Assembly: GCF_030053135.1 (NCBI RefSeq)
Contig: NZ_CP125652.1
Location: 372,001-436,000 of the forward strand
From: Rhizobium sp. BT04
GTDB taxonomy: Bacteria; Pseudomonadota; Alphaproteobacteria; Rhizobiales; Rhizobiaceae
DNA length: 64,000 bases
Direction of reading: 5' to 3'
Of the stretch, positions 17,575 to 34,962 are shown in pieces. Each line of letters starts with the position of its first letter. The first letter of the stretch is position 1. The notes below the pieces were generated by a model that did no database searches, was not told where the DNA came from, and saw nothing but the letters and a program-made list of their open reading frames with translations. The translations under genes and the position numbers were made by a program.

Positions 17575-17958
17575 TCAGATCAGCTTAAGCCCCTTCAGGC
17601 TGACATGGCCGTCCTTGCCGATGATGACGTGGTCGTGGACGGTGATGTCGAGAGCCTTGGCGGCATCGATGATCACCTTAGTCATGTCGATGTCGGCGCG
17701 TGATGGCGTCGGGTCGCCGGAGGGGTGGTTGTGGACGAGGATCATCGCCGTTGCCGAAAGCTCGAGCGCGCGTTTCACCACCTCGCGCGGATAGACCGGC
17801 GTATGGTCTACCGTGCCGCGGCCTTGCACCTCGTCGGCGATCAGCACATTGCGCTTGTCGAGAAAGAGGATGCGGATGTGTTTCTCGGCTCCGAATTTTG
17901 CAGCCCTTTCAACACTTTGCACTAAACGTCCCCCAAACGTCCCCAACGCGTCCCTCAT
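17575..17958 (-). CDS. radC: RadC C-terminal JAMM domain fragment, severed by the integrated element and coupled to its integrase
   Basis: 127 residues. From about residue 29 the sequence is the C-terminal half of Rad[21 protein letters not shown], then the JAMM metal motif [15 protein letters not shown] (HxH...D). The first 27 or so residues are encoded by the element ([12 protein letters not shown]...). The rest of radC is 16.5 kb away at 34420-34962. The start codon lies in ATGA, overlapping the integrase stop, so the fragment can be translated from the integrase message. Domain and zinc ligands are intact, but without the HhH half it is not a normal RadC. Whether it is made or active is unknown. 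Confidence 0.88.
17870..17876. other. Attachment-site core, left (integrase-proximal)
   Basis: ATGCGGA, identical to 34430-34436. The RadC reading frame to its left is host sequence and to its right is element sequence. Beyond the 7 bases the flanks match only partly (a further TGTT three bases on). Confidence 0.75.
17926..17954. repeat. Putative integrase arm-type sites, left end
   Basis: Three related words in a row: ACGTCCCCC (17926-17934), ACGTCCCC (17937-17944) and ACGCGTCCC (17946-17954). Inverse complements of the first and third recur at the other end of the element. They lie inside the overlap of the integrase gene and the RadC fragment. Confidence 0.65.
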
Positions 17959-19160
17959 TCGTTGTTCTCGTTACGTTTTGCCAGCCGCATCTCGGCAACG
18001 CGACTGGTCTGCTTGATCGTCCCGCGGTTATAGCGGGCGCTTGTCTGCCGGTTTTTATGGCCGGCGGATTTCATGACGTCGGTCTCGGCCGCGCCTAGGT
18101 CATAGGCTTCCGTGATGGCGCCTGCGCGCGCATCCATATTCCAAATGGTCCGCGGGATGCCGGCTTTATCTGCGACTTTACGCCAACGCTCGGTGAATTT
18201 CCGATTTTTATAGGGTACGCCCGTTGCCTCGGATATGATCACAGGGCCCACACGCTTTTCAAGCGGGACGCGATTTATTTCCTCGATCGCCGCGGGATGA
18301 AGCTTCAGGTCATGCTCGACCGGAAAACCCGTCTTCGTGTGGATCTTGCGCAGGATCATGTCGTCGCCGATATCGGACCAGACAAGCCCGTTAACCCACC
18401 GCGTATCCCTATATGTGATGCCGCCGTCTTCAGCGCTCGCACCAGGCTCCCATTCGCCCACCACATCCTTCTGGCGCATAGTGAGCTCGAACTGCAGAAC
18501 GGTCGCCAGCGCGATTGACGGAAAGCCCTCAGCATGCGCTGTGACGCGGATGGCAGCAACATGTTCCGCCGTCATCACAGATGTGCGAGCAGGTGGCGTC
18601 TTGAACCGGATTTTGCCGAGGATGGTATCTGCGCGAAAGCAATCGTCGAAGCCCAGCGTAACGCCGTAGCTTATCAGCTGCCGGACGGCATCAATGGCGT
18701 GCTTGGCGCGCCATGGGCGGTGGGGCTTGCCAGGCGCTTTCGGCTCTCCCCACTGACCATGCCAGCGCTTGAAGTCCGGGCCAAGGAGCTTCCCCACGTT
18801 ACGGGCTCCGACGGTCGCCTCGATGATGATAAGCGACTTCAGGACGTTTTCGCGGCTGTTGTACTTGAGGGAATGAAAAGGAGAATCGGGGTTCGTCTGA
18901 TAGAGCCGAGACAGGCTCTTGAGAGTTCCGTCATATCCAGGCGCAGCGTGTTCGCCGTTAGCGGCCCACGCCAACATTTCCGCTTGCAGGATCCGGCAGC
19001 GCGCGGCCAACTGTGTGCGGCCTTCAGGTGTCACCGGGTAGTGAAGTCGCACGCTCGAAGGCCTATAGCCGCGCTTCACCAGATCCGCACGCGCTTCCCA
19101 GTATTCCCGAATGCTGCCGTCTTTGTTGCGCTTGCGTTTCAGCCCGGGTGCATCTGTCAT
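17955..19160 (-). CDS. Tyrosine-type site-specific integrase
   Basis: 401 residues. The C-terminal catalytic domain has Arg229 ([10 protein letters not shown]), Arg345 ([15 protein letters not shown]), His368 ([16 protein letters not shown]) and the nucleophile Tyr377. The His that usually precedes the second Arg by three residues is replaced by Met342, an uncommon change. The N-terminal half fits a core-binding domain. It should recombine attP with the radC attB site and, with the excisionase, reverse this. It starts within ATGA overlapping the stop of the excisionase-like gene, and its own stop overlaps the start of the RadC fragment, so all three form one coupled unit. Confidence 0.93.
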
Positions 19161-19411
19161 GACCAGTTCTCGGCGCCGTCGACGGTGGCGGGCAGGGCCG
19201 TCTGATGCAGCCCGTGCCGACGGTCTAGGAAGGCGCGCACTGCCGGCCAGTAACGGCAGCCCGTCATCGGATCGATGCGCGGTAGACCTTCACGCTCCCA
19301 GACGATGGCAAGCGCATCCCAAGCCGTCCTGGACTTGGCGCCGAGGACGCGCTGCGCGATCGACGCCTCTGATAGGTACAGCGGGTTATTGTCGTTGGCG
19401 GCAGCTGGCAT
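19157..19411 (-). CDS. Excisionase-like small DNA-binding protein
   Basis: 84 residues from ATG 19411, chosen because GGAGG lies 8 bases upstream. PLYLSEASIAQRVLGA resembles the helix-turn-helix start of MerR/AlpA-type proteins, and IDPMTGCRYWPAVRAFLDRR the wing and following helix. Its position directly before the integrase, with a 4-base overlap, is that of a recombination directionality factor. DNA binding and the excisionase role are inferred from fold-like pattern and location; no closer family is recognised. Confidence 0.65.
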   Translation of the reverse strand: MPAAANDNNPLYLSEASIAQRVLGAKSRTAWDALAIVWEREGLPRIDPMTGCRYWPAVRAFLDRRHGLHQTALPATVDGAENWS

Positions 19412-19530
19412 CGTTCCTCCAGTTTTGTTGAGCACACAGCAAAGTGTAAACATGCCCATCAGGTCAATACCGGCCGGCGCGCTGCTGGTGTGGGCGCAGG
19501 TGGTGATCGCGCCGGCCTTTGGTGTTCATG

Positions 19531-19566
19531 CTGCCCGCGGGCGACAGGGCAAGCGCCCACGGGCAG
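19531..19566. repeat. Strong GC hairpin between the HNH and excisionase-like genes
   Basis: CTGCCCGCGGGCG and CGCCCACGGGCAG form a 13-bp stem with one G-T pair around a 10-base centre. No T tract follows on either strand, so it is not an obvious terminator. The surrounding 19412-19585 holds no convincing gene. Confidence 0.45.
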
Positions 19567-19585
19567 CTCAGCCGGCCGCCACCGG

Positions 19586-19888
19586 CTATCTCTGAGGCTT
19601 GATGGCCTCCATAAACTCCAGAAACTCACCTCGCCGGAACGTTGCGTATAGAATCCATGACAACGAACCACGCTCCTGGTTGCAACGCTTGCATGCGAGG
19701 GAAAGGTTATGCGGTTGGTTGGTGCCGCCGTCGGCGCGCCGTCGCAGATGCTCAATCGTGGCTGCGTCTGACCGCTGCTGAATTTTATAATCTGCGCTCA
19801 GAACAACGAACCGCTCGCAATAGCAGCACCGCCCGTTCTGGCGTTCGAATAACTTAAGAAGGACTGGAAGCCGCACCTTTGACTTCAT
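19586..19888 (-). CDS. HNH endonuclease
   Basis: 100 residues, a single HNH domain. Zinc-type CxxC pairs RCCYCERF (about 21-28) and CKRCN (about 66-70) frame the catalytic ATIEHLRRRADGG with HNLSLACK. Small HNH proteins of this kind are common in phages, where they nick or cut DNA, sometimes in support of packaging. It stands between the 82-residue gene at 19910 and the recombination genes, on the same strand. There is a second, different HNH gene at 27294. Confidence 0.88.
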   Translation of the reverse strand: MKSKVRLPVLLKLFERQNGRCCYCERFVVLSADYKIQQRSDAATIEHLRRRADGGTNQPHNLSLACKRCNQERGSLSWILYATFRRGEFLEFMEAIKPQR

Positions 19889-19909
19889 GGCTTAGCTCCT
19901 GCCGGATGG

Positions 19910-20158
19910 TCAGTGAGTGTGCTTAAGGGCCGAGCCCAGCACATCCCTAGCCGGGCGCTCGTGGGCGTCCAGCAGGACGATCCCATAATGCTCGCGGCCC
20001 ATTGCGGTGCGAGAGCGGGAGATGACGATGGCTAGGTCGCCGTGGAAGTCGACCAACTGGCCGATGCGAAAGCGGTACGCTGCTACATAGCTTCGTCTTC
20101 TGCCAAGCAAACTGCGAGGCAACTGAACTCTCGGAATATTGATCTCTTCTGCTGACAT
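19910..20158 (-). CDS. Small hypothetical protein of the element's early region
   Basis: 82 residues. AGGAG lies 8-12 bases before ATG 20158. The centre, RFRIGQLVDFHGDLAIVISRSRTAMGREHYGIVLLD (split near 27-62), alternates strands like a small beta-barrel, but I do not recognise the family. It is transcribed divergently from the XRE repressor across a 102-base intergenic region with two operator-like repeats, the position of a lytic-side early gene (cro/antirepressor position). Function unknown. Confidence 0.65.
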   Translation of the reverse strand: MSAEEINIPRVQLPRSLLGRRRSYVAAYRFRIGQLVDFHGDLAIVISRSRTAMGREHYGIVLLDAHERPARDVLGSALKHTH

Positions 20159-20190: not shown

Positions 20191-20262
20191 ATTTGTACAG
20201 TGTCCATATTCATAAACGGATTTTGTTCCGTGTCAACACGTATTTGTACAGGGTACACAAAT
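20191..20262. promoter_or_regulatory. Divergent operator region of the XRE repressor
   Basis: Two copies of ATTTGTACAG-G/T-GT occur at 20191 and 20242. The second extends into the palindrome ATTTGT-(9)-ACAAAT (20242-20262) that overlaps the repressor start codon. A further short palindrome GTGTCAACAC lies between (from 20230). This suits repressor binding that controls both divergent genes and represses its own gene. Confidence 0.6.
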
Positions 20263-20509
20263 GAGGGGCGTGCAGATAAAAATGGCCCGGGCCGCATTGG
20301 GTTGGGGAGTGCGCGATCTCGCCGCAAAGTCGGGAGTGGCCGCCAACACGGTCAATCGAATTGAGAATGGATCAGACGCAAAGCAATCGACAATGGATGC
20401 ATTGCAGCTCGCCCTCGAGGCGGCCGGCATCGTCTTCATCGACGGCGAATATGCCGGCTCTGGCGGCCCAGGCGTACGCCTCGCGGCGCCATCAAAATCG
20501 GGGGCCTGA
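20261..20509 (+). CDS. XRE-family helix-turn-helix regulator (probable element repressor)
   Basis: 82 residues, nearly all one Cro/CI-type HTH: QIKMARAALGWGVRDLAAKSG, then VAANTVNRIENG and a helix with TMDALQLALEAAGIVF (about 5-66). There is no peptidase or dimerisation domain, so it is a short repressor. ATG 20261 has no good Shine-Dalgarno sequence; the palindrome 20242-20262 covers the region, so the mRNA may be leaderless like lambda cI mRNA from pRM. It faces the minus-strand early genes divergently and probably sets the dormant state of the element. Repressor role inferred from position. Confidence 0.88.
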   Translation: MRGVQIKMARAALGWGVRDLAAKSGVAANTVNRIENGSDAKQSTMDALQLALEAAGIVFIDGEYAGSGGPGVRLAAPSKSGA

Positions 20510-20557: not shown

Positions 20558-20812
20558 ATGACTCCCAAGTTGCGTCTGACGCTCTTTATGCCTCTTGTTT
20601 TGCTCGCCAGCTGCGACGACGATAGCCGCCAATATACCCTGTATCGAAACAGCGCTCTTGACGCGAACATGCGCTTGCATGTCGCATCGTTCGACAGCGC
20701 GGACGGCGAGTCTTACAACTCCGAAAACTGCCAAATAGCGGCGGGCCTCTTTGTGACGCAGCCAGGCGTCACCGTCCGTTATTGGTGCGAGAAAGGCAAA
20801 TTTCGAAAGTGA
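20558..20812 (+). CDS. Small lipoprotein
   Basis: 84 residues. A signal peptide ends in the lipobox LLASC (Cys about 18), preceded by a hydrophobic LTLFMPLVLL core and two basic residues. The mature part is hydrophilic with two further cysteines (NCQIAAG, YWCEKG), which could form a disulfide. Function unknown; prophage lipoproteins of this size often act in superinfection exclusion, but nothing here proves that. Its stop overlaps the GTG start of the next gene. Confidence 0.7.
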   Translation: MTPKLRLTLFMPLVLLASCDDDSRQYTLYRNSALDANMRLHVASFDSADGESYNSENCQIAAGLFVTQPGVTVRYWCEKGKFRK

Positions 20813-21039
20813 CCGAGCCCCGCCTAATCGGCCGCAAGCAAGCGGCCGTCTACCTCGGAATCGCCGAATCAACGTTCTCTTTATGGGTGGCCACTTACAA
20901 AATGCCACCGGCGATCCCCGGCACCCGTAAATGGGACAAAAGAGCGATTGACGCCAAGCTTGACGAGATAAGCGGACTTACGCCAGCCGAGAAAGAGGAT
21001 CCTTATGACAAATGGGTGAGGGAGCATCCATATGACTAA
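20809..21039 (+). CDS. AlpA/MerR-type winged-helix DNA-binding protein
   Basis: 76 residues from GTG 20809, which overlaps the lipoprotein stop (GTGA); a TTG at 20782 would add nine unlikely residues. PRLIGRKQAAVYLGIAESTFSLWVA with the following PPAIPGTRKWDKRAIDAKLDEI (split, residues about 4-46) is the winged-helix pattern of AlpA-like regulators and excisionases. It may regulate element genes or act as a second directionality factor. It is followed by an RHH-like gene with an 8-base overlap. Confidence 0.75.
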   Translation: MTEPRLIGRKQAAVYLGIAESTFSLWVATYKMPPAIPGTRKWDKRAIDAKLDEISGLTPAEKEDPYDKWVREHPYD

Positions 21040-22318: not shown

Positions 22319-23461
22319 TTACGCAGTCCTTTTGCAGGGGAAAATAAAACCGTCAGTCCAGACCCAAAGATTGCCGGCGGCACCGGCCACGTAGCGAATC
22401 TGTTTGCTCGTGTTGGTCAAGATATCGCGGGCGCCTACCGCGAAGCCGCTGGCAACCTGGATCGAGCCAACGCTGGGTCCGTCATTGCCGATGCCCGCGA
22501 CCAGCGCGCCCTGCGCAGGATCGGACAGCAACGCCGCGTTGGTGGTCGCCGATGACGTGAACTCAAACCGCAACTTAGCTTTGACCCTGACCCCGTTAGG
22601 GACTGTCAGCGCCAAAAGCGTTGAGGTTGTGGAAATGGCGATGTTGGCGGCATCCTTCACTGGTGAAATGAAGGTATATTCGCCGTCCGCCTCCATCGTG
22701 AACTCTCGAATGTTCGAACTGCCGTCAGTCAGCACAACGCCGATCGGCGCCAAGACATCGTAGCCGGTCAGCAGCGACGTATTGACGCCGCCGACTGTTG
22801 CCGACGTCGACAGCACCACCTCACCAGTCCCGTCCGACTGCTTGCGAAGCGCGTAGACGAAGTAAGTGGCGTTGGCTGCCTTCACGCCGGTATCGAGCCC
22901 GCCGTTGTTGCCGGCCACCCATGTACTATTGAGGTTCTTGGTGAGCGTGCCGGACGAGACCGCGACTTTGCTGAGGGCCTTCACAGTGAACGAAGCAATG
23001 TCAAGATGCGTTTGAGGATTTGATCCATTGGGGAGTACGATACCTCCCTCAACAAAATCAGGGCCAAGCGCGGAAGCAAGCCATGCGCTCAGGTTCGTGA
23101 GCGTTAGGCTCTTCGTGTCTCCCGCAGCGCTGTCCCAGATACCGAGCTTGTCCGCGCCGGTTGGTGCTGCCTTTGCGGTGGCGGCACTTATAGTCGTGCC
23201 GAGGCCGCTGAACGTCACCGCGTTTGTTGCCGTGTCGAGCACCATCAGCAGAGTGTCGTCAGATCCATCATAAAGGTAGAGCTTCAGTTGGCCAGCCGTG
23301 GCCGTCGAGATCCAGATAGTGCCAGCCACAGCATAGGACGGCCGCGAAGCGCCAGAGTGAGCGCTCACGGCCGCCTTGAAGTTATCATCGATGCGCGACG
23401 CCATAGCTGATGGCGTCGCCGGTCCAGTTGTCGGAACACTAAAGATTGTTGCTTGCGTCAT
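22319..23461 (-). CDS. Phage tail fibre/receptor-binding-like protein
   Basis: 380 residues, rich in Ala, Thr, Ser and Gly with few charges, typical of trimeric fibre proteins. N-terminal half contains SYAVAGTIWISTATAGQLKL and LYDGSDDTLLMVLDTATNAV, resembling repeats in phage tail proteins that present a sample/time-type header; the C-terminal half (about 280-380) has the VTNTSKQIRYVAG-type beta-rich region. Probably the distal tail protein contacting the host. It overlaps the end of the upstream 251-residue gene by 23 bases. Host receptor unknown. Confidence 0.7.
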   Translation of the reverse strand: MTQATIFSVPTTGPATPSAMASRIDDNFKAAVSAHSGASRPSYAVAGTIWISTATAGQLKLYLYDGSDDTLLMVLDTATNAVTFSGLGTTISAATAKAAPTGADKLGIWDSAAGDTKSLTLTNLSAWLASALGPDFVEGGIVLPNGSNPQTHLDIASFTVKALSKVAVSSGTLTKNLNSTWVAGNNGGLDTGVKAANATYFVYALRKQSDGTGEVVLSTSATVGGVNTSLLTGYDVLAPIGVVLTDGSSNIREFTMEADGEYTFISPVKDAANIAISTTSTLLALTVPNGVRVKAKLRFEFTSSATTNAALLSDPAQGALVAGIGNDGPSVGSIQVASGFAVGARDILTNTSKQIRYVAGAAGNLWVWTDGFIFPCKRTA

Positions 23462-24194
23462 ATTGCGAACAGACCTGTTCTTTTTTGGAGGGGTTAATCA
23501 AGGTTCGGATCGGACGGCCGAGTAAGTCTTCCGACCAGATTCGCAGGGGCGTTGTTTCGACGCTGGTCGCGGTCACTGTGGTGAGGTCGACGCCGCCACC
23601 AATGGTGCATTGCCCGAATCGTTCGGGATCAGTCTCATCATCAAAGCCGCTTGCCTCGCGCATCGTCTCGGCGATGACGACGCCATAGTCTGGCAGCAAA
23701 GTGCCACCATAGAATGAGGCAACCAGCGCGTCTTGAGATGCGCCCTTCGCGATCAGGGCCTGTAAATCGATCTTGCCGCCCATCGCTAAATTGAAGCCGA
23801 TCGGCGCTTTCGTAATCCTCCATGCCGGCATGCCAGGCATCAAGTTGTGAGAGGGAAGCGCCCAGAGGCCGAGGCCACTGGTTTCGGATATACCTGCAAC
23901 CAAGAGCTCAAAGTCAGCACCATGGGCGTCGAATAGCGCCCGCTGCTCGGCAACAAGGTCCCCCAGCAAAGAAAGGCCGCCGTCGAAGCCGTGGCGCTCC
24001 ACCGCCGCGTCCAGCGCTGCAGCGAAGACGTCCAGAAGCGCGGCACGTCCACGACCAGCGACAGCCATGGTTGGATGCTGACGCGTTCGGACCTTGGGGG
24101 CGATGTCGACGACGACGCCATTAGGATCGATGGCTGCCCGATCGGTTAGGATTTCGACTCGGTCCGGATGGACAAATGCGAGAACAAGGGTCAT
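23439..24194 (-). CDS. Hypothetical tail-module protein, possibly Ntn-hydrolase-like
   Basis: 251 residues from ATG 24194, which overlaps the tape-measure stop by 4 bases. The opening MTLVLAFVHPDRVEILTDRA followed by KVRTRQHPTMAVAGRGRAALLD recalls the proteasome/Ntn-hydrolase layout, but a catalytic N-terminal Thr/Ser/Cys is not obvious, so this is a weak suggestion. It lies between tape measure and fibre-like genes, where distal tail components are encoded. I do not recognise the family with confidence. Confidence 0.6.
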   Translation of the reverse strand: MTLVLAFVHPDRVEILTDRAAIDPNGVVVDIAPKVRTRQHPTMAVAGRGRAALLDVFAAALDAAVERHGFDGGLSLLGDLVAEQRALFDAHGADFELLVAGISETSGLGLWALPSHNLMPGMPAWRITKAPIGFNLAMGGKIDLQALIAKGASQDALVASFYGGTLLPDYGVVIAETMREASGFDDETDPERFGQCTIGGGVDLTTVTATSVETTPLRIWSEDLLGRPIRTLINPSKKEQVCSQYDASNNL

Positions 24195-26158
24195 TGAATC
24201 TCCAAGGTAGCGACCGGCCCGACACACGCTGTTGCCGCGGCTCTCATCAGGGCATTTTGAATGGAATCTGCGAGTGCTTTGCCGGCGTTTCCGCCGTTCT
24301 CTACGAGCGCGGTTCTGAAATCGTTGAAGAAAGACCGGAGGTCATCTCGCATGTTTCCAATGCGGATCGACTGTCGGATCTGCCCAGCTTCTTGGCTGTT
24401 CAAATCTTCCGGTAGGCCGTATTGCCTGAGCGTCGTGGTGACTTGCTGATCTTGCTTTGACAGGGAATTGAATCGCGTCTGACTGATCAGATCCTGCTGC
24501 AGTTTCGTCTTCGACAGGACGCCTGCATATTTCTCGTAGAGCGCGACCTTCTGCTCGATGGCGGCCTTTTGCTCCGCATTTAGCGACCGGCCCTTGTCCT
24601 CCGACTGCTGGAGCAGGTCGAGACGGAAACGCGCCGTATCGGCCGCCACGCCATACTTGCCGAGTAGCTCGATCTCTTGCTGCATTTGGCCGAGCCTGTC
24701 GTCGGCCGCTTTCAAGAGATCGCGGTAAGCGTTCGCCGCTTTCGTGGCTGCAGTTTCCGCCTGCTTGTCGGCTTTCTCGGCGCCGGGCAGGCCCTCGAGC
24801 TCGATCAACGGCCGGCTCTGGGGGGTGGGCCCTACGGCCGGCGTAAACGTGCCTGTCTGGTGGGTCTTGCCATTCTCATCCCGGAAAGTGGAGCCGGCAG
24901 TGATGTCCTGAACGCTCGTGGCGCCGGCCAGCGCCTTGATCCACTCCTCGCGCGCCTCTTTCGATGCGGCAATCGACTTCTGGATCGATTGTGTGATCTG
25001 GTCGAATGCGTCACGAAAGCCCAAAACCGACTTGATGCCATACTGGTCGACGGCCGTTGCCAACATTTGTTGCGCGGCATTGATATCGCCGATTGATGCA
25101 GTGCCGCTGTCTAGCCGCTCCTTCAGGTCGCTGAACGCCTTGCCAAAATCACGAATGAATGCCGGATCTGCCTGAATGCCGCGGAGTCCGCGCATGGCTT
25201 CGGTGAATTGCCTGTTGATGCCTTCAAGCTTGTCGCCGAGACCCTCGAGCGCTTTGGCGCCCAAGATGTCGCCGGCTTCCCGGCCGGTAGAGATCTGTTT
25301 TGCACGGTCGAGCTCGTCGACGACCTTCGTGACAGACGGCAGCGCTTCGCCCCAGGCGGCCGCAGCGTCGCGGATCACCTCGTTCTGCTTCTCGATCAGC
25401 GGCGTGGTTTTCTTCGCGCCGTCTTCGCCAGCGGTGAAGTACTCAATGAGCGCCGCGGATCCAGCCACCAGGCCGATGGTCACGAGAGAGATTGGCGAAA
25501 GCAAGGAGGCGAAAGCCGCGCCGAGACCGCCGACTACCTGTCGGCCGTTCCCCATCGTCGCGAGCACTGACGATAACTGCGTTCCCTGCTGCAACGCAAT
25601 CTGCAGGGGATTCGCGCCCATTGCGGAAGTTACGGCAATGTCCTGGAATTGTGCCGCAATGTTCGCGGTCTGGAAGCCTCGGCCGGCGCGATTGTCGTTG
25701 GCAGGAGTGTCTGCGAGAGCTGCATTACGCGCCTTTATGGCGGCGATCTGCGAGGTAAACGCCGACTTCTCTCGGTCTAGTGCTGACGTCATCTCGCTGG
25801 CTGAGATGGCTCCGAGGGCATGGGTCGCCTTGATCTCTTTTAGGCTTGCCGCATAGCTTTGCTGCGCGGCAAACAGTGGATTGTATTTCGCACGAAGCCG
25901 CTCAAGCTCCTTGCCCTGATCGGCAAGCGCGCCAGTCCACTCTTTCGAGGCCTTGGTACCGATGCCGACTGTGGCCTCAATGCGCTTCTGTAGGGTTGTA
26001 GAAACCGAGTTGTCGATCGACTTGCCGACGGCAGTGAATTGCTTCTGGACGCTACCGGCGAGAGTGCCAAGATCCTGCTCAATCCGCTTTATGGAGCGAC
26101 GCAGCGCGGCCTGATCGGTCGAGATGCTGATAATCAGGTCATCGGTATTGTCAGCCAT
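24191..26158 (-). CDS. Phage tail length tape-measure protein
   Basis: 655 residues. N-terminal coiled-coil region (STDQAALRRSIKRIEQDLGT, about 14-33), then NIAAQFQDIAVTSAMGANPL and QIALQQGTQLSSVLATMGNG (about 168-208), the signature of the prophage tail-length tape measure family. A Gly-rich hydrophobic stretch (about 205-240) and a long Ala/Lys helical part with QQEIELLGKYGVAADTARFR follow. It sets tail length in siphoviruses. The C terminus (RAAATACVGPVATLEIQ) is short, so the tail would be small if functional. The preceding 400 bases lack the usual tail-tube and chaperone genes. Confidence 0.85.
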   Translation of the reverse strand: MADNTDDLIISISTDQAALRRSIKRIEQDLGTLAGSVQKQFTAVGKSIDNSVSTTLQKRIEATVGIGTKASKEWTGALADQGKELERLRAKYNPLFAAQQSYAASLKEIKATHALGAISASEMTSALDREKSAFTSQIAAIKARNAALADTPANDNRAGRGFQTANIAAQFQDIAVTSAMGANPLQIALQQGTQLSSVLATMGNGRQVVGGLGAAFASLLSPISLVTIGLVAGSAALIEYFTAGEDGAKKTTPLIEKQNEVIRDAAAAWGEALPSVTKVVDELDRAKQISTGREAGDILGAKALEGLGDKLEGINRQFTEAMRGLRGIQADPAFIRDFGKAFSDLKERLDSGTASIGDINAAQQMLATAVDQYGIKSVLGFRDAFDQITQSIQKSIAASKEAREEWIKALAGATSVQDITAGSTFRDENGKTHQTGTFTPAVGPTPQSRPLIELEGLPGAEKADKQAETAATKAANAYRDLLKAADDRLGQMQQEIELLGKYGVAADTARFRLDLLQQSEDKGRSLNAEQKAAIEQKVALYEKYAGVLSKTKLQQDLISQTRFNSLSKQDQQVTTTLRQYGLPEDLNSQEAGQIRQSIRIGNMRDDLRSFFNDFRTALVENGGNAGKALADSIQNALMRAAATACVGPVATLEIQ

Positions 26159-26828: not shown

Positions 26829-27179
26829 TTATCTCCGATTTGATCTAAGTGCAGGCGGCCTGGCGGTGTCGCTTCCGCCGTCGAAGTCCAGATCGAGCTC
26901 CCGGACAAGCCGCGCGAACGCGAGTCGGCTGTTGTGCATGATCGAGACTTCGGGGCGCTCCTTGGGCTGCCCAAATCTGTCGGTAAATGTCTGGCCGTCC
27001 CGTTCGATCGTCTCCCGGCAGGATTCGGTCTGGTCTAGCGCCTCGCAGGCTAAGGTGAGCAGATGATGGTGATGGGCGTCCAAATCCCACTCCTCGACAA
27101 CAGATCGGAACCACTTTCGGGTAGCTGGCCGCAGGTGTTTAGGGGCTCTCGGGGGTCCGTAAGCCTTAGTTTCTGGCAC
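26829..27179 (-). CDS. Phage terminase small subunit, P27-like
   Basis: 116 residues. GTG start 27179 with CGGAGG 8 bases upstream. APKHLRPATRKWFRSVVEEW (about 12-31) and the helix LTLACEALDQTESCRETIERDG (about 42-63), then FGQPKERPEVSIMHNSRLAFARLVRELDLD (split) match the P27 family of small terminases, which bind DNA and load the large subunit for packaging. In phages the large-subunit gene follows directly; here an 88-residue gene follows and no large subunit is seen. A satellite could use a helper phage's large subunit. Confidence 0.85.
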   Translation of the reverse strand: MPETKAYGPPRAPKHLRPATRKWFRSVVEEWDLDAHHHHLLTLACEALDQTESCRETIERDGQTFTDRFGQPKERPEVSIMHNSRLAFARLVRELDLDFDGGSDTARPPALRSNRR

Positions 27180-27293: not shown

Positions 27294-27593
27294 TCACACC
27301 GGGAACCCATCGACCCCGAACCGAACGACCTTCCCGCCGCGCTCTTGACGCTGCTTGTGCCGCGAATGGCATGATGGGCAAAGGCTAGCCAGGTTGCCAG
27401 GATCGAAGAACAACGCAAGGTCGCCCTTGTGAGGCGTGCGATGGTCGACCGTGTTTGCTGCTGTCACCACGCCAAGTTCTTCACACATCCAGCATAGCGG
27501 TTCTCGTGCCAGCTGGGCGAGCCGCAGCTGCTTCCAAAGTGCTGTCCGGTAGAGCGAGTGGTATTGCTGGGCTTCCTGGCTGCGCGATGTCAC
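27294..27593 (-). CDS. HNH endonuclease of the packaging module
   Basis: 99 residues. YRTALWKQLRLAQLAREPLC with CWMCEELG (CxxC), then the HNH core VDHRTPHKGDLALFFDPGNL and LCPSCHSRHK. This is the HNH type encoded next to terminase genes in HK97-like phages, where it takes part in genome packaging cleavage. GTG start 27593 overlaps the prohead protease stop (GTGTGA). Followed by the candidate packaging spacer and the small terminase gene. Confidence 0.9.
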   Translation of the reverse strand: MTSRSQEAQQYHSLYRTALWKQLRLAQLAREPLCWMCEELGVVTAANTVDHRTPHKGDLALFFDPGNLASLCPSCHSRHKQRQERGGKVVRFGVDGFPV

Positions 27594-28105
27594 ACCGGCA
27601 GCCCTCGCGCCCTCATCGCCGCCTCGGCCTTCGCCTTCACGCGCTCAGCTGCATCGTTGCTGCTAGCCACCCGGAAGCTGGCGCTGGTATCGCCGTAGGC
27701 GGGAAGGCAGGTGAGCGTGACCTCGAACAGGTCGACGTCCTTGATGATCCGAAGGGGTAAGCGGTTCTTGCCGTCCCTCCATTCCTCAGCTCGAACCCGA
27801 AAACCGAAACTGCATCCGCGCACGTCGCCCCGCTTCACTGTGCCAATGGCCTCTTGGCCACTCGGCGTTGTCGGATTCGGTTCGAGATCAAACCAGAGAC
27901 CGGCGCTATCTTCCCGCAGATATAACGTGTGAGCTGTGGTGCGCCCGACGACCCGGCCTGTATCGTGATCGAGGAGCATCACCACGTCGGGACGCTCTCG
28001 GAGGGTGCGAGCAAAGACGCCGGGCGCCAGCATTTCTCGGAATTCGCCGCCGATGACCGTCTCGCTGTTAAACCTGGCAGCATAGCCAGAGATGCGCTCA
28101 GCCAT
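27590..28105 (-). CDS. HK97-family prohead protease
   Basis: 171 residues from ATG 28105 (MAERISGYAARFN); an upstream ATG adds eight unlikely residues. PDVVMLLDHDTGRVVGRTTA (catalytic His about 56) and KRGDVRGCSFGFRV (catalytic Ser about 104) are the U35 prohead protease motifs, and DLFEVTLTCLPAYGDTSASF is the conserved end. Such proteases trim the capsid protein during head assembly, but no capsid gene follows. Overlaps the upstream 61-residue gene by 8 bases. It could process a helper phage's capsid or be a relic. Confidence 0.9.
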   Translation of the reverse strand: MAERISGYAARFNSETVIGGEFREMLAPGVFARTLRERPDVVMLLDHDTGRVVGRTTAHTLYLREDSAGLWFDLEPNPTTPSGQEAIGTVKRGDVRGCSFGFRVRAEEWRDGKNRLPLRIIKDVDLFEVTLTCLPAYGDTSASFRVASSNDAAERVKAKAEAAMRARGLPV

Positions 28106-28283
28106 CCAGTTTCGCCTCGGCCCTCGCAAGCTGCGCCTCCCGCAGACCGAGCTCAGACTTAGCTCTCAGTTCTCGTGCGATGTCGACCGGCCTGGCGTCG
28201 CTATGTTGTGCCGTCTTACCGGGTAGTTTCACCGTACGACCAGCGCCGCCGGCCTTTGTGTTTGCGCGTTCAAACATACCCAA
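28098..28283 (-). CDS. Small basic hypothetical protein before the prohead protease
   Basis: 61 residues (or 59 from the inner ATG at 28277). Lys/Arg/Ala-rich, with a predicted helix RELRAKSELGLREAQLARAE in the C-terminal half. It overlaps both neighbours (14 bases upstream, 8 bases downstream), the sign of a coupled operon. No family recognised. Confidence 0.55.
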   Translation of the reverse strand: MGMFERANTKAGGAGRTVKLPGKTAQHSDARPVDIARELRAKSELGLREAQLARAEAKLDG

Positions 28284-28830
28284 GGTCCTTTGCTTCTTTG
28301 GTCACGCGATGGACATGACCGTCATTAGCCTCGCCGAGAAAGCCCAGCGACATTGGGCCGAGCGAAGACCAGCGAATGTCCAGATCTTCGAACTGAAACC
28401 GCAGTTCATCGTAATCAGCGCGTGCTCCGGCAACGCCCTGAAGCGCATGAACGAGGGCGGCAACACGACGGCCGTACTCCTTGCGGCAGGCATCGACGAC
28501 CAATTTATTGGCCTGGATCCGCTGCTCTTCCAGTCTTTGGTTTATGACGGAGAGAGCTTTTTCGATGTCAACAGCTTCGGCCCGAAGTGTCTTCAACTTC
28601 TCGGCTAGACCGTGCTCGGTCTCCCCGCCGCTGCTGCTTTCGCCGAGAAGCTCAGCGACTTTTTGGGAATACTGCGCCGGCGGGCGTGTCGCGAGCTTCT
28701 CCTCGACGCTCCGCTGCTCACGTGTGTTTGCTGTCTGCTTGTCGAGTAGGATGCCGCGGCGGGTTTCGAAATCCTTATAGACCGGATCGAGGTCGCTGAG
28801 CGCTGGGACGCGGAATTTATCTGTTTTCAA
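28270..28830 (-). CDS. Hypothetical coiled-coil protein of the head-like module
   Basis: 186 residues. Residues about 20-50 and 75-115 are strongly heptad-like (ETRRGILLDKQTANTREQRS, LKTLRAEAVDIEKALSVINQ, RLEEQRIQANKLVVDACRKE). The C-terminal part is compact. It resembles scaffolding-type proteins in composition, but no family is recognised. ATGA overlap with the upstream gene (28827-28830) and a 14-base overlap downstream place it in the coupled run 29671 to 27294. Confidence 0.6.
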   Translation of the reverse strand: MKTDKFRVPALSDLDPVYKDFETRRGILLDKQTANTREQRSVEEKLATRPPAQYSQKVAELLGESSSGGETEHGLAEKLKTLRAEAVDIEKALSVINQRLEEQRIQANKLVVDACRKEYGRRVAALVHALQGVAGARADYDELRFQFEDLDIRWSSLGPMSLGFLGEANDGHVHRVTKEAKDLGYV

Positions 28831-29360
28831 GAAAAGATCTCCTGCAGAGCGTCCGCGAGCGCGGCGCCGTTGATCGTGAGTGATTGCCGATGTCCTGACG
28901 ACTGCCAGTAACCAGCGAAAGCGCCGACGGCCTGGAAGCGGTGCGTGGAGCCGTCTTCGAAAATGACGGCCAGCTCAGGCCAGGTCGAAACGAACTCCAA
29001 CTTCAAACGCCGTATGCCGACGTCGCCTTCGACAGCGAGGGCCGCGATCGAGGCCAAGTAATCGGCGGCCGTGACCTTGATGTTTGCGGGTGCGCCGGAG
29101 AGGTTGGCGCCGCCGGGCGAAAGCTCGCCATATGTCGCCACGGAGCGGGCCGCGAGATGCAGCGGGGCTGCGGCCGCATAGGCGACGACAAGATTGACCA
29201 CGTCGACGAGCGAAAGCTGCGGCGCGGTGCGGGGGGCTCCGGTTGGGATGACTCCGGCCTGTTGCAGGCGCTGTGCCATCGAGACAAGGCGCCCACGACG
29301 GAAGCCGACGTGGCGCTCAAGTGCCGCGATCGCCGCGGCGAGAGTGGCGGTCTTCGTCAT
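28827..29360 (-). CDS. Hypothetical protein of the head-like module
   Basis: 177 residues from ATG 29360, which overlaps the upstream gene's stop as ATGA. The N-terminal half (TLAAAIAALERHVGFRRGRL, about 4-23, and QLSLVDVVNLVVAYAAA, about 47-63) is helical and could be DNA-binding. The C-terminal half (LKLEFVSTWPELAVIFEDGS, then THRFQAVG) is beta-rich. No family recognised. Located before the coiled-coil, protease, HNH and terminase genes; a regulatory or head-related role are both possible. Confidence 0.6.
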   Translation of the reverse strand: MTKTATLAAAIAALERHVGFRRGRLVSMAQRLQQAGVIPTGAPRTAPQLSLVDVVNLVVAYAAAAPLHLAARSVATYGELSPGGANLSGAPANIKVTAADYLASIAALAVEGDVGIRRLKLEFVSTWPELAVIFEDGSTHRFQAVGAFAGYWQSSGHRQSLTINGAALADALQEIFS

Positions 29361-29671
29361 GCGGCTACCCACTGCAGTTTGTCGCCTTGCTGAGCATAGA
29401 CGTCGTAGTCAGCGCCGGCGCGAACGAGGAAACGAGTGCCGGAAGTCGCGTTGGGCGCAGGGCCGATTGATACCCACGAGTCGGCAGCCGCGTTGATGCG
29501 GAAGATGGGGTCGGCGGCGATATCCGATGCCGCCGGTGCGGCGTTTGTCGAAGTGACGCCGGATGCCGGCGCTTCGCTCCACGAAATTTTGCCAAGAAGA
29601 GCTTGGGAAGCGAAGCGCTGCGACTGGGATCCAGCATAACCGCAAACGACATGGAGGCCTGAGAAAGCCAT
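29357..29671 (-). CDS. Hypothetical small beta-rich protein, first gene of the coupled run
   Basis: 104 residues from ATG 29671 (MAFSGLHVVCGYAG); the ORF extends further upstream without support. Ala/Ser/Thr-rich with SWVSIGPAPNATSGTRFLVR and GADYDVYAQQGDKLQWV at the end, a pattern seen in capsid decoration and receptor proteins, but this is only a composition-based hint. It is the first gene after two minus-strand terminators, so a promoter should lie just upstream. Confidence 0.55.
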   Translation of the reverse strand: MAFSGLHVVCGYAGSQSQRFASQALLGKISWSEAPASGVTSTNAAPAASDIAADPIFRINAAADSWVSIGPAPNATSGTRFLVRAGADYDVYAQQGDKLQWVAA

Positions 29672-29977: not shown

Positions 29978-30730
29978 CTACGCCGCCGCGCGTCGACGAC
30001 CACGCCAAAAGCGATCGACGATTTCGAAGCCGTCAAAGATGCGCGCGCGAGCCTCGCCCTTTGCCCCCTTGCTGCCGGCACCGAGCCGTTTGCCTATGGC
30101 GTCGAGCGTGAGGCCGTCACAAACTGCCCACTCGAAGGCGTCTAGGATCTTCGGTACGTAGGCCAATCGCGCGCGCAAGATTGCGAGCTCGCGCTTGGCA
30201 TCAATGGCGGCAAGTATGACCTGGTCGCCGTTCCACTTTTTGGCGACCGGTGCGCCCATGGCCTTGCCGTCGACGCCAGCCATGGCAATGCGCTTGGCTG
30301 GGGTGTCCAAATTCGCCTTCCGGCCGGCCACCACTTTCACGCCTTTGCTCTTGCCGTTGCCATCCTCGCGGTGGACTAGGAAAAGGTTTGTCGCCTCTCG
30401 GCCGATCAACTGCGTCGGCATTGTTGCCGCGTCATGCAGTGCTCGATATCGCTCGGCGAGCCTCAGACACAGATCATTGCGCTCGGTGCGCAGAAGCTTT
30501 GCCAGCGGCCAGTCTTCGTTGTCATTTGCGTGCTGGCCGCGGAAGTGGTGAGAGGAGTACCATGCTACGCCAGCGCGGATCCGATATTCTTCTGATGGAC
30601 CATCATTCGGCTGTAGAACAGGCTCGCCTTGGGATCTGATGCGCGTTCGCGCCGGCGTCCATTCGTCGGCGCTCTGGACGATAGGCAAAATAGTATCGCG
30701 CCGGTCGAAGACCGGGATTTCTTCAGTCAT
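29978..30730 (-). CDS. Hypothetical protein with a C-terminal helix-turn-helix-like domain
   Basis: 250 residues from ATG 30730 with AAGGTG 8 bases upstream. Mostly charged. The C-terminal part, DAFEWAVCDGLTLDAIGKRL with GAGSKGAKGEARARIFDGFE (about 193-232), reads like a sigma-4 or LuxR-type helix-turn-helix followed by a helix, so DNA binding is plausible. Position upstream of the structural run, and isolated by terminators, suits a late-gene regulator. The family is not firmly recognised. Confidence 0.6.
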   Translation of the reverse strand: MTEEIPVFDRRDTILPIVQSADEWTPARTRIRSQGEPVLQPNDGPSEEYRIRAGVAWYSSHHFRGQHANDNEDWPLAKLLRTERNDLCLRLAERYRALHDAATMPTQLIGREATNLFLVHREDGNGKSKGVKVVAGRKANLDTPAKRIAMAGVDGKAMGAPVAKKWNGDQVILAAIDAKRELAILRARLAYVPKILDAFEWAVCDGLTLDAIGKRLGAGSKGAKGEARARIFDGFEIVDRFWRGRRRAAA

Positions 30731-30966
30731 GCTGTCACCTTGACTTTGGGAGTTGAACCGTCCGCTTTTCGCGGATCTCGTCATTGGGGCGAAGGCCGTT
30801 CCGGCTCTCTTGGGTGATGATGGCTGCAGTCACGAAATGTAGTGTAAACAAACGAAAAAGACCACGAGATTTTGATTTCGGAAAATCAAGGCGCTGAGGG
30901 TCTCGAACGCTTGATTTCGGCCGGGATTCCCCTAACAGTTGCAAAGTGAGTTTATGGGGAAGGGCG

Positions 30967-32316: not shown

Positions 32317-32416
32317 TAAGTGAAATTTTCCCGTTAAAAGTTTGGTAACCACCTTGCGCGAATCCACTGATTCGGGCATGAAAAAAGCACGTCGACGAAA
32401 TCGACGTGCTTTTGTG
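32317..32416 (+). ncRNA. Candidate small RNA of the element
   Basis: About 100 bases between the promoter at 32283 and the terminator at 32383. A hairpin CGAATC-CACT-GATTCG (32359-32374) precedes the terminator stem, and CGGGGA / TTTCCCG could pair near the 5' end. No ORF with an RBS is inside. Called from promoter-terminator pairing only. Confidence 0.4.
32383..32416 (+). terminator. Intrinsic terminator
   Basis: AAAAGCACGTCGA and TCGACGTGCTTTT form a 13-bp perfect stem around CGAAA, followed by GTGTG. Because A6 precedes it, it may act on both strands. Confidence 0.75.
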
Positions 32417-32540
32417 TGTTTGCCGCGGCTGGCTGGCTTGCCGTGAAGCAAGCCGTGCGCCGAAGCGGTAGTCTAGGCAACTCCGTAGATAGCGCCCAAA
32501 GGCCCATTTGGCAAGCCAGTAACCCACTAGGGAGATGCAG

Positions 32541-32723
32541 ATGGCAAACAAGCCACCTCTTCGCCCCGGCAACGAGACACCGCGCTCTGGTCAATACCAG
32601 ATCATCGGTCCTCGTGGTGGTGCTGGACCTGAGAGGACTGCCGTTCAAGGCAAGCCCCTCCCGCCAACACCGAAGCCGGGCTCTACCTACCGTCTCGTGG
32701 ATCCCACCAAGACCGGTAAGTGA
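32541..32723 (+). CDS. YjzC-like small protein
   Basis: 60 residues from ATG 32541 (GGGAG 8 bases upstream). The pattern LRPGNETPRSGQYQIIGPRG, then GERTAV-type core and LPPTPKPGSTYRLVDPTK is that of short YjzC-like proteins found in many bacteria: a PG..AP.SG.Y..GPRG start and a LPPTP..G..Y.LVD.TK end. Function unknown. It is followed 66 bases later by a DUF3892 gene on the same strand. Both are likely cargo of the element. Confidence 0.78.
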   Translation: MANKPPLRPGNETPRSGQYQIIGPRGGAGPERTAVQGKPLPPTPKPGSTYRLVDPTKTGK

Positions 32724-32789
32724 TTGATGCAGCAAGTGGCGTGATGTCTCACGCCACTTGCGACCCCTATCAGTCGGAGTTTTCTCAAT

Positions 32790-33071
32790 ATGGCAGATGT
32801 ACTGGTTTCCTGCATCAACAAGCGGGATCGTAACAGCACGCATGAAGGCATTACCCACCTCGGCAACCCAAATTCCGCCAACGGCGGCTGGAAATGGACT
32901 CGCGCGCAGGTGATCGCCTCAATCGAAGCGAAAGACAATACGTTCTACACACTGGTGAACGGTAATCGCGGCAACATCGGCGTCGTAGACGGGCCGAACG
33001 GCAAATACGTTCGTACCTACGCCGACGGAAAGTGGAATGACAATCTGCTTGCCCTTCCGGAATGCTCGTAA
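32790..33071 (+). CDS. DUF3892 domain protein
   Basis: 93 residues. VLVSCINKRDRNSTHEGITH with LGN, then a Trp-containing turn, VIASIEAKDNTFYTLVNGN and the closing YVRTYADGKWNDNLLALPEC follow the DUF3892 consensus closely (the end DNLL.LPEC is diagnostic). The family is small, cytoplasmic and of unknown function, common near mobile genes. Probably in one operon with the YjzC-like gene. A GGCCGGC / GCCGGCC inverted repeat follows its stop. Confidence 0.85.
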   Translation: MADVLVSCINKRDRNSTHEGITHLGNPNSANGGWKWTRAQVIASIEAKDNTFYTLVNGNRGNIGVVDGPNGKYVRTYADGKWNDNLLALPECS

Positions 33072-33081
33072 AGTGAGAATC

Positions 33082-33106
33082 GGCCGGCGCGAATGCCGGC
33101 CTCCTT
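33082..33106. terminator. Possible terminator between DUF3892 and replication-type genes
   Basis: GGCCGGC-(6)-GCCGGCC stem followed by TCCTT on the plus strand, between convergent genes. Weak T tract. Confidence 0.45.
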
Positions 33107-33137
33107 CGGCAACTCTTGGTGACACTCTCAACCGGAT

Positions 33138-34058
33138 TCACGCCGCCACCCTCATCGCACGGCGGCCCCACTCATCCGCGGGAACGTACTTCGGCGGCCC
33201 GTGGCGTCCGATAACATGCACCTGCTTACCAACCAGTTCGCCCACATCGCCAGGCATATCCGCACCCAGTGCCCGCAGGAACTCGGCAAGCTGGGCCTGG
33301 CCAGCTTCCTGCGCCCGCTGAGATTGGGACTCGACCGTAAAGCTATCGTCGCGCTCGCCGCCAACATCATCAGTCATCACAATGTAGATGAAGGTTCCTT
33401 CGTCATCTTGGTCGACTTCTGCCGCCGTGACAGTCAGTTCGACGATCGCCGTATCAACTTCAAAATCTGCCCCGACCGGCGCGGCCGAAAGGCCGTGCGC
33501 CGAGGCGGGTGCAGATATACCTACGTAGTCATCCCCCGTAGGGATGACGTAGGTTTGGGGGGCGGGATTCCGCCCTACTAATTGCTCTAGTGGGGCGGTT
33601 GGCCGCCCCACTAAGTTGCGTAGTGGGGCGGAATTGTGCCCCACTAGCTTTTGCGTGCTAGTAGGGCGGTTTTCCGCCCCACTACGACGCTTTTGTTTCG
33701 CGGTTGCGCGTTCGCGGATTTCCACTTTTATGGTAGCGGCGATCCGGTGCGCCCATTCAAAATTTGGCAAATATTCGTTCCCGCGAGTGCCGACACCAGT
33801 GCGGGCAACCCTGATGTATTCCCACTCAATAAGGCGGCGGATAGACTCCTTGATCGAGCCGTTGGACCGACCGGTCTCTCTCTCAAGGTGAGCCTTTCCG
33901 GTCGGACGTGTGATTCCTTTATCCTTCAGGAAGCGGTCGACGATCTCAAACAGGCAAGCGAGATCGCAGGCGGATAATCGCTTGTCCTTCGATGCGTACA
34001 GTGCGATCTGGAACTGGTCGAGCGACCCGATCTTATCCGGCGCCTTATCGCTGGTCAT
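33138..34058 (-). CDS. Winged-helix replication-initiator-like protein with embedded palindromes
   Basis: 306 residues from ATG 34058. The N-terminal domain (about 15-110) is a winged helix: SACDLACLFEIVDRFLKDKG, KAHLERETGRSNGSIKESIR and the wing YIRVARTGVGTRGNEYLPNF resemble phage replication proteins. A repetitive linker (about 125-165) with three 11-residue units starting LVG(H/R) is encoded by four 26-bp palindromes (33555-33684). The C-terminal part (about 190-306) is a separate domain (VDTAIVELTVTAAEVDQDDE, LRALGADMPGDVGELVGKQV). An origin inside the initiator gene is a common phage design. Start overlaps the upstream gene by 14 bases. Confidence 0.72.
   Translation of the reverse strand: MTSDKAPDKIGSLDQFQIALYASKDKRLSACDLACLFEIVDRFLKDKGITRPTGKAHLERETGRSNGSIKESIRRLIEWEYIRVARTGVGTRGNEYLPNFEWAHRIAATIKVEIRERATAKQKRRSGAENRPTSTQKLVGHNSAPLRNLVGRPTAPLEQLVGRNPAPQTYVIPTGDDYVGISAPASAHGLSAAPVGADFEVDTAIVELTVTAAEVDQDDEGTFIYIVMTDDVGGERDDSFTVESQSQRAQEAGQAQLAEFLRALGADMPGDVGELVGKQVHVIGRHGPPKYVPADEWGRRAMRVAA
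33555..33684. repeat. Four 26-bp palindromes within the replication-type gene (candidate origin)
   Basis: Units at 33555-33580, 33588-33613, 33621-33646 and 33659-33684. The clearest reads TAGTGGGGCGG-TTGG-CCGCCCCACTA; the others differ by a few bases and the first is the most degenerate. Spacers are 7, 7 and 12 bases, giving periods of 33, 33 and 38. Candidates for initiator binding sites (iterons). Confidence 0.8.
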
Positions 34059-34296
34059 GGCGCACCGCCTCAAAAGCCTCGAGGGCTAGAGCGGTAAGCT
34101 GCTCGGCCAGGGGCTTCGAGAAGGTGGCGGTGCGCCGGTGGCCCGCCTGCGGCGCGTACAGAAGATGCCGGCCGTCGGCCTGCCGGACAAGGCGAAGGCC
34201 GTAAAGTCTGATGTCGTCGTTGAGCTCGACGTCAACGAAGGCGACGCAATCGCGCTGGCCGGTTTCTCTGGTGGGATGGGTATAGAGGATTTTCAT
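34045..34296 (-). CDS. Small hypothetical protein, faintly SpoVG-like
   Basis: 83 residues from ATG 34296, chosen because CAGGAGCGAGAC lies directly upstream. The core VAFVDVELNDDIRLYGLRLV followed by DGRHLLYAPQAGHRRTATFS recalls SpoVG-type RNA/DNA-binding proteins (FDV.L...G.RL....G....P), a weak resemblance. The first minus-strand gene from the right end, 14 bases into the replication-type gene. Likely an early function. Confidence 0.55.
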   Translation of the reverse strand: MKILYTHPTRETGQRDCVAFVDVELNDDIRLYGLRLVRQADGRHLLYAPQAGHRRTATFSKPLAEQLTALALEAFEAVRHDQR

Positions 34297-34368
34297 GTCT
34301 CGCTCCTGATTATCGCGCACGACGGCGCGCCCGCCGGAGAGCCGGCAGGTGGTTGTGGTCATAGGGTT

Positions 34369-34401
34369 GGGGGACGTTACCTTACGGCAACGGGGACGCG
34401 T
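34369..34401. repeat. Putative integrase arm-type sites, right end
   Basis: GGGGGACGT (34369-34377) and GGGACGCGT (34393-34401) are exact inverse complements of two words at 17926-17934 and 17946-17954. Opposite orientation at the two ends is what arm sites of a tyrosine integrase show once the circle is opened by integration. Confidence 0.65.
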
Positions 34402-34419
34402 GCTAAGCTTTTCAATATC

Positions 34420-34962
34420 TTAGGACAGAATGCGGAATTGTTCGCGGGTCTCGTGCGCCATGGCGGCATGGCAATACTGGATGACCGACGACCACGAAGA
34501 CAGCACCTGCTTGCTCCTGAGCTCGCTCTTTAGTGTCCGGTGGGCCACGGTCGAGATCAGCTTCAGGTCTAGCGCCACGGCCTCGCCGACACCCTTCACC
34601 TCCGTCAGCAGCGCTGCGGGCGCGCCGAAGACGCCGGAAAGCGAGCCGAAGCGTTCGATCAGCGCCTTGGCGATCGGCTTGGTGTCGCGCCGCGGGATCA
34701 GCCGGAAAAGCAAGAGTTCGAGGATTTCGTAGTCGGCAAGCGCGGTGTCGCCCAGCTCGCGGAAGCGGTCACGCAACCGCTCGCGATGGCCATGATAATG
34801 CTCCTGGCCGGCGAGCGAGGCGGGCAGGGCGGTCCTGGCATTCGGCACGAATGGTTTTTGCGGCTGTTTGCCGAAGAACGAGCGTTCGTCGGCGGCAATC
34901 GGCTCTTGCGTTGGGAAAGGCAGCTCGTCGTCGGAGGATGTCGAAACAGGGCCTTTCGCCAT
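34420..34962 (-). pseudogene. radC: radC 5' part (UPF0758), truncated by element insertion
   Basis: 180 residues from ATG 34962. After a variable N-terminal tail, [20 protein letters not shown] and [20 protein letters not shown] (helix-hairpin-helix region, about 118-137) are the normal N-terminal half of RadC. Host sequence continues to REQFRI, then the element supplies Leu-Ser-stop. The missing half (JAMM domain) is at 17575-17958. Intact RadC would have about 275 residues. The gene starts 7 bases after the map stop. A soluble HhH fragment could still be made, but the JAMM activity is detached. Confidence 0.93.
34430..34436. other. Attachment-site core, right
   Basis: ATGCGGA, the partner of 17870-17876. 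The last host codons of the radC 5' part lie to its right and element sequence to its left. Confidence 0.75.

Follow-up and report, generated by a model that had tools for sequence, protein, structure and literature searches.

An element inserted in radC

We analysed a stretch of 64,000 nucleotides from Rhizobium sp. BT04 (GCF_030053135.1, NZ_CP125652.1), hereafter the window, whose positions serve as coordinates throughout. In it, the minus-strand gene radC is interrupted by a phage-like element of about 16.6 kb (the window element), which is not an ordinary prophage. The best explanation, to which we give a probability of about 0.7, is that it is a phage satellite of an undescribed Rhizobiaceae family, whose radC lineage has the same type of integrase as phages of 38-42 kb.

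The RadC frame breaks after REQFRI at 34430 and resumes with RILFLDKRN at 17876, and the 7-bp core ATGCGGA stands at both places (34430 and 17870), 16,560 bp apart. When the stretches 17820-17960 and 34380-34520 were compared, this core was the sole direct repeat of at least 7 bp. The N-half open reading frame (ORF; 34420-35010, -) continues into a stop supplied by the element (...REQFRILS*), the C-half ORF spans 17575-17958 (-), and both halves are stop-free as far as the junction. Joining the host flanks at the core gave a single open RadC frame with zero internal stops. Finally, the N-half matches UPF0758_N in Pfam, with a helix-hairpin-helix (HhH) match below the cut-off, and the C-half matches the RadC/JAB domain (PF04002), for which the genome has one match in total. 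Thus, a first-pass annotation of this DNA was right in placing a phage-like element within radC, with the frame broken and resumed at these cores and the HhH and JAB halves exactly separated. Its further claim that excision would give back radC agrees with the open joined frame, from which precise excision should restore the gene.

In a search with the integrase, genome contigs gave 8 loci and viral contigs 17, and the integrase was at least 80% identical in 13 of them. Setting aside G011, which is the same DNA as Rhizobium sp. CCGE 510, and the phages G013 and G015, which end 3 bp past the integrase and leave the site unreadable, the C-half of radC follows the integrase at the same codon in nine of the ten remaining loci, giving ten distinct elements together with the window. 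The tenth locus, phage G016, abuts the N-half of radC in the opposite orientation. No radC lay within the stretch fetched for the other 12 loci (32-47% identical; 74% over a fragment in L009). The N-side junction could be read in six of the ten elements. In two of these it lies on a separate contig; the other four hold both junctions on a single contig and measure 16,560, 17,675, 16,494 and 9,785 bp. The first-pass annotation had suggested a comparison with relatives free of the element, and the site was uncut in all 28 of the nearest relatives inspected. With one codon cut in ten distinct elements, the N-side junction seen in six and the site uncut in 28 relatives, the split is not due to chance. 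Moreover, the insertion looks recent, since the window C-half differs from that of intact relatives by 12-28 synonymous and 0-2 nonsynonymous changes.

Both ends of the element carry copies of the heptamer GGGACGY (Table 1). On the integrase side they are 11 bp apart in all ten radC elements, with two exact copies in AFS054504 and three in the other nine, and this spacing is kept in phage G016. At the N-half end, the inverted heptamer has one or two exact copies in five of the six readable elements and none in that of R. rhizogenes ST15.13.057. Such repeats are likely arm sites for the integrase and an excisionase (Xis).

Across the genus, 140 of 148 genomes have a JAB match and 8 have none. 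Of these 140, 118 have radC intact by open-frame length and 4 have it split at the present site; of the 18 others, 11 are broken inside the JAMM motif VHNHPSGD. The latter were judged from match ranges, and four of them (G027, G083, G142 and G145) were looked at closely. Their radC halves lie about 61-119 kb apart, so that much larger insertions seem to use the JAMM break point. A 14-bp repeat is common to both breaks in G083; no exact repeat of at least 14 bp was found at the breaks in G142 and G145, and the repeat found in G027 falls outside radC. The view that radC is an uncommon target does not hold, since phage phi105 interrupts it (PMC3764409) and integrative and conjugative or mobilisable elements (ICEs/IMEs) of Mesorhizobium use it as an integration site (PMC8627217, partial text).

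The first-pass annotation had also suggested a reversible switch, as with the comK prophage. In such a switch, regulated excision upon stress would turn RadC on. The exact restoration expected and the stop-free halves agree with this, and the insertion of phi105 in radC has been linked to induction by competence (PMC3764409). However, we find a switch very improbable: only 4 of the 148 genomes carry a radC-split element, radC is broken elsewhere too in about 11, no sign of regulated excision was seen, and the element is without packaging and capsid genes (see below) in a genome with no phrog_9 match for the large terminase (TerL). In addition, the start codon that the element supplies to the C-half is open in only three of the ten elements. 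We know of no benefit of a timed RadC. Those three (the window, G009 and G010) bear on another idea, in which the JAB half would be made as a protein in its own right, its start linked to the integrase by an ATGA overlap: the stop codon of the integrase shares bases with an ATG in frame with the C-half, and the leader is open. In the other seven elements, the integrase ends differently or the leader has stops, so that the coupling is not a conserved feature; we rejected it as less probable still.

Gene content and a candidate small RNA

Labels were assigned to the window ORFs by PHROGs and Pfam searches (Table 1). We found no TerL, portal or major capsid protein (MCP) in the window element, either with three PHROG models (phrog_9, phrog_10 and phrog_12) or with own-built profiles, and, since every ORF of at least 250 aa was assigned to a family, none is left that could encode a TerL. 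The initiator was labelled indirectly, through a relative (L041) that matches replication initiation families. Pfam detected no AlpA among the eight window genes between 17955 and 21235, the only related hit being an excisionase-like PHROG match.

The structure predicted for c4, a gene of the small elements, is a long helical hairpin (predicted local distance difference test, pLDDT, 85.5), for which BFVD held no fold match at E <= 0.001 and the PDB only chance-level sequence matches. The model of c8 is confident (predicted template modelling score, pTM, 0.85), and an alignment search for c8 gave no match. Neither had a tblastn match in 50,697 phage records. As to the cargo, the ORF at 30946-31542 had no match in PHROGs, Pfam or PADLOC, and that at 31500-32054 none in PHROGs or PADLOC. 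Defence was considered as a role and dropped: seven window ORFs gave no PADLOC match, and the single match over ten proteins was PD-T7-4 (3.5e-6) in CCGE510.

Table 1. Features of the window element and of the interrupted radC (window positions)
Feature	Position	Strand	Basis
radC C-terminal half (JAB/JAMM domain)	17575..17876	-	Pfam, frame join
Attachment (att) core ATGCGGA, C-half (integrase) side	17870..17876	.	Repeat comparison
Three direct repeats, 11-bp spacing, GGGACGY on - strand; candidate integrase/Xis arm sites	17927..17962	.	
Tyrosine integrase, 401 aa	17955..19160	-	phrog_1 8e-11; PF00589 4e-4, below its cut-off
c14, 100 aa, overlaps integrase start; possible directionality factor	19157..19459	-	Conserved beside integrase
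HNH endonuclease-like protein	19586..19888	-	Pfam/PHROGs
HTH_3 regulator, likely repressor	20261..20509	+	Pfam/PHROGs
Small helix-turn-helix (HTH) protein, excisionase/regulator-like	20782..21039	+	phrog_66 among matches
Tail fibre-like protein, 380 aa	22319..23461	-	phrog_19294
c12, 262 aa, follows tape measure in several relatives	23439..24227	-	ORF family
Tail tape measure protein, 655 aa	24191..26158	-	phrog_19914 5e-154; TMP_2
Small terminase subunit	26829..27179	-	phrog_83; Terminase_4
HNH endonuclease, possibly packaging type	27294..27593	-	PHROGs
Head maturation protease	27590..28129	-	phrog_80, 2e-46
c4, 186 aa, predicted long helical hairpin; in small elements, not in three full phages	28270..28830	-	
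c8, ~180 aa; in small elements, not in three full phages	28827..29372	-	
c15, 104-118 aa	29357..29713	-	ORF family
c5, 268 aa, family common to three full phages; possible late activator	29978..30784	-	
Two cargo ORFs, 198 and 184 aa	30946..32054	+	No family matches
Candidate small RNA, 93 nt: hairpin, near-invariant segment, terminator	32381..32473	-	
Promoter-like TTGCCA-17-TATCTA just upstream of candidate RNA	32514-32486	-	Read from sequence
Replication initiator-like protein, 311 aa	33138..34073	-	Label via relative L041
c16, 105 aa, terminal gene at N-half end	34045..34362	-	ORF family
Two copies of GGGACGY heptamer, opposite orientation, 22 bp apart, other end; putative function	34371..34399	.	
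att core ATGCGGA, N-half side	34430..34436	.	Repeat comparison
radC N-terminal half (UPF0758_N/HhH), up to core	34430..35010	-	Pfam, frame join

A terminator-like hairpin at 32383 ends a 93-nt minus-strand segment that is common to the window, to two other small elements (G010 and G012) and to phage G016. It contains the near-invariant segment GCAAACACACAAA, which has one inserted A in G157. We regard it as a candidate small RNA carried by satellites and by phage-like regions within the genus. First, none of 200 shuffles folded as well as the 113-nt region that contains it (z -5.2). Second, 94% of the pair cells are standard in the four copies, whose covariation score was reached by 6 of 500 shuffles and whose number of pair types by 106 of 500; over eight copies, two-sided changes occur in 6 of 27 pairs, and in 13 pairs one or more sequences are broken or gapped. 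Third, a promoter-like TTGNCA-17-TATYTA precedes six of the eight copies, including that of the window, where it ties in score with a site elsewhere. A general promoter scan gave no more sites than shuffles did, and the site of the RNA (8/12 matches) is below its limit. Rfam had no match in 17500-35100.

A model of this RNA, built on the four copies, had matches in 17 of 148 genomes at E <= 1e-3, and any match above E 1e-12 was left out of the count; two such matches at 2e-6 (G120b and G070) had no family genes nearby. Five matches were strong, the window included. Those in G062 and G027 belong to further c8-c4-protease elements, not selected by c4, and that in G157 sits in a phage-like region. 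The last one (G120:C839, L178) has a JAMM-broken radC at a distance of about 4 kb, and another kind of radC element may thus carry the RNA too.

Small elements and full-size phages

Three phages of 38-42 kb in IMG/VR (G013, G015 and G016) carry an integrase 82-83% identical to that of the window element, and all of them have TerL, portal and capsid genes. The tape measure, HNH and c5 families are present in all three, the initiator family in two and the candidate RNA in G016 (L055; 41.7 kb), the only one visibly in radC. Because they have the integrase, tape measure, HNH and c5 families in common with the window element, we infer that a helper would be of this kind. The small terminase of the window matches a different PHROG family from theirs.

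We then compared 22 small elements, some of them partial, by ORF clustering and own-built profiles, 10 picked by their integrase and 12 by c4. In our samples, c4 was present in 11 of 394 Rhizobiaceae genomes, the own genome included, across 8 genera, and in 4 of 397 genomes of the order, two of them outside the family; among the ten other c4-bearing genomes of the Rhizobiaceae sample, G471 was left out of the locus set. A search with c5 gave one locus, in the already known G009 record. The suggested gene order is c16, initiator, c13, c5 or c21, c15, c8, c4, protease, HNH/small terminase, tape measure, c12, fibre, cargo, HTH, c14 and integrase. This layout is mosaic, as no single element has all modules, and HNH and small terminase are outside the profile set. 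Among the 10 integrase-picked elements, c4 is found in 7, c8 in 8 and the protease in 5; the AFS054504 element (9.8 kb) has none of the three, and that of R. rhizogenes is partial. In the c4-picked loci, the protease adjoins c4 in all 12 and c8 does so in 9, the exceptions being G315 (cut by a contig end), G368 and G337. Helicase- or primase-like genes lie near the place of the initiator in two elements, and tail tube and tail-completion families are also present in G010, G012 and G014. Genome G230 has a second c8-c4-protease-tape measure set, on a 6.5-kb contig (G230:C19, L112).

The three PHROG models were run over 22 genomes or records, covering 19 small elements and the three full phages. 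Each model was positive in all three phages. Among the small-element records only G014 was positive, for the capsid, along with a 34-position, 11-bit portal match, and matches elsewhere in the host genomes fell outside the elements, save for the protease domain touched by the capsid model. Likewise, the own-built profiles, which match all three full phages but were seeded by them, found TerL in 0 of the 22 small elements, portal in 0 and a capsid gene in one (G014) or possibly two. The capsid gene of G014 (L047:10868-11965) stands beside c8, where other small elements have c4 and the protease. The second case may be a 12-kb R. rhizogenes contig (C31) with initiator, c21, c8, capsid and tape measure families, whose capsid gene (L127:4243-5604) is also beside c8 and in which the PHROG models found neither TerL nor portal. 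This contig may be the missing middle of the R. rhizogenes radC element, or another such element; a second capsid-bearing contig without TerL does not count against a satellite. Another contig, G002:C12, was rejected as part of the R. rhizogenes element.

The ratio of nonsynonymous to synonymous substitution rates (dN/dS) was 0.03-0.47 for integrase, HNH, c5, c15, protease, c4 and c8 (0.03-0.07 for the integrase, 0.25-0.47 for c4 and c8). In the eight genes compared, it stayed below 0.5 wherever unsaturated; saturated rows were not used, and the row of c14 against L040 (dN/dS 1.64) was dropped for a misaligned frame. These values indicate that the genes compared are under purifying selection.

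Satellite or prophage remnant

A decaying remnant would also lack these genes, if a full radC phage, once integrated, had shed the genes for head and packaging and become immobile. Related phages with the same integrase type do exist, and most Hyphomicrobiales prophages are classed as incomplete, with terminase and head genes preferentially lost in the non-animal group and integrase, tail, transposase and protease genes enriched (PMC11080155, partial text). Furthermore, no helper is visible in the own genome, where neither phrog_9 nor phrog_12 nor a second phrog_10 match was found, which argues against an HK97-type helper there (other phage types were not sought). Against decay, many divergent elements resemble each other in layout and lack the same genes, the compared genes are under selection, c4 and c8 are not found in the full phages, the small terminase is of a different PHROG family, and the insertion looks recent. 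Since size, layout and missing gene classes recur and selection is purifying, a satellite fits better, and we see a remnant as an unlikely, though not negligible, explanation. Transposases aside, the enrichment reported for incomplete prophages (PMC11080155, partial text) is close to the gene set of the family, so some so-called remnants may be satellites. The first-pass annotation had not recognised that the element belongs to a TerL-less, satellite-like family.

Other points besides the missing helper weigh against a satellite. Neither excision nor induction nor transfer of the element was observed, and it has a tape measure and a fibre, although typical satellites are without structural genes. 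By construction, c4 is present in the 12 of 22 elements picked by it, and several elements reach the end of their contig. That of R. rhizogenes is not complete; C31, on which c8, a capsid gene and a tape measure lie, may be part of it. In three relatives, ORFs of 435-620 aa were left unassigned and had no PHROG match, and the N-half match of AFS011725 contains one TGA. Lastly, no function could be assigned to c4 and c8 and no significant structural match to c4, and the dN/dS ratios are rough because dS is often above 1.

Taken as a phage satellite, the element would work as follows. Its tyrosine integrase would recombine the 7-bp core in radC with attP, using arm sites 11 bp apart, so that radC is split on insertion and should be whole again after excision. 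The repressor-like regulator, the candidate excisionase and the initiator-like protein would supply its own control and replication. As TerL, portal and MCP genes were not found, it would neither build nor fill a particle alone, and the family probably depends on a full-size phage to move between cells. The element would wait until the cell is infected by an HK97-type phage, one of those that integrate in radC, then excise and replicate, its small terminase and HNH protein steering the packaging of the helper, the protease and c4/c8 acting on the helper's head, and the tape measure and fibre on its tail. More tentatively, alphaproteobacterial satellites might rebuild both particle ends of the helper, the protease with c4/c8 (or the capsid beside c8 in G014 and C31) resetting the head and the tape measure and fibre re-tailing it, and the structured RNA, which phages of the genus also carry, might link satellite and helper regulation. 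The protease/c4/c8 block sits where G014 has its capsid gene and recalls, as a lead, the capsid-homologue strategy of SaPIbov5 (PMC8569155, partial text).

Known satellite families include those of Firmicutes and Gammaproteobacteria, among them Vibrio (PMC10803314, partial text), with one further family in Streptomyces (PMC10690885, partial text). The gene radC was already known as an integration site. The proposed satellite family is undescribed: none of the titles listed in the open-licence literature points to such a family or to the RNA. If true, a conserved Rhizobiaceae family would bring alphaproteobacteria into the host range of satellites, provide a new head-and-tail hijack for study and alter the reading of short rhizobial prophages.

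A hallmark of phage-inducible chromosomal islands (PICIs) is an AlpA-type regulator next to the integrase. Like these and the Staphylococcus aureus pathogenicity islands (SaPIs), the window element is att-flanked, of satellite size, and has an integrase, regulators, a replication gene and a small terminase; unlike them, it has no AlpA by Pfam, possesses a head protease, a tape measure and a fibre, and resides in Rhizobiaceae rather than in the many Firmicutes and Gammaproteobacteria that host PICIs (PMC10803314, partial text). Phage satellites at large are integrated elements of about 7-20 kb (PMC13376191, partial text). The window element, 16,560 bp between its att cores, has its own integrase, regulation and replication (the last by an indirect label), and the particle-building and particle-filling genes (TerL, portal, MCP) were not found in it, but its tape measure, fibre and head protease depart from a definition with no virion structural genes at all. 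It is similar in size to capsid-forming PICIs (cf-PICIs; average 14 kb, PMC10803314, partial text) and has head-related genes as they do; no capsid or portal was found in it, whereas G014 and the R. rhizogenes contig have a capsid beside c8. Phage-inducible chromosomal minimalist islands (PICMIs) integrate at fis with int, alpA and fis (PMC10803314, partial text), and the window element is in radC. Neither the AlpA of PICIs, nor the capsid of cf-PICIs, nor the TerL, portal and capsid of a complete phage was found in it. The Mesorhizobium ICEs/IMEs share radC as attachment gene and belong to related bacteria, but they are conjugative or mobilisable and, in the available part of PMC8627217, are not described as bearing a phage gene set. 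Bacillus phage phi105 also integrates within radC at a short core (10 bp, PMC3764409), but is a complete 39-kb phage of another phylum. The full-size phages G013, G015 and G016 resemble the window element in integrase type and in their tape measure, HNH and c5 families, and differ by their size and their TerL, portal and capsid.

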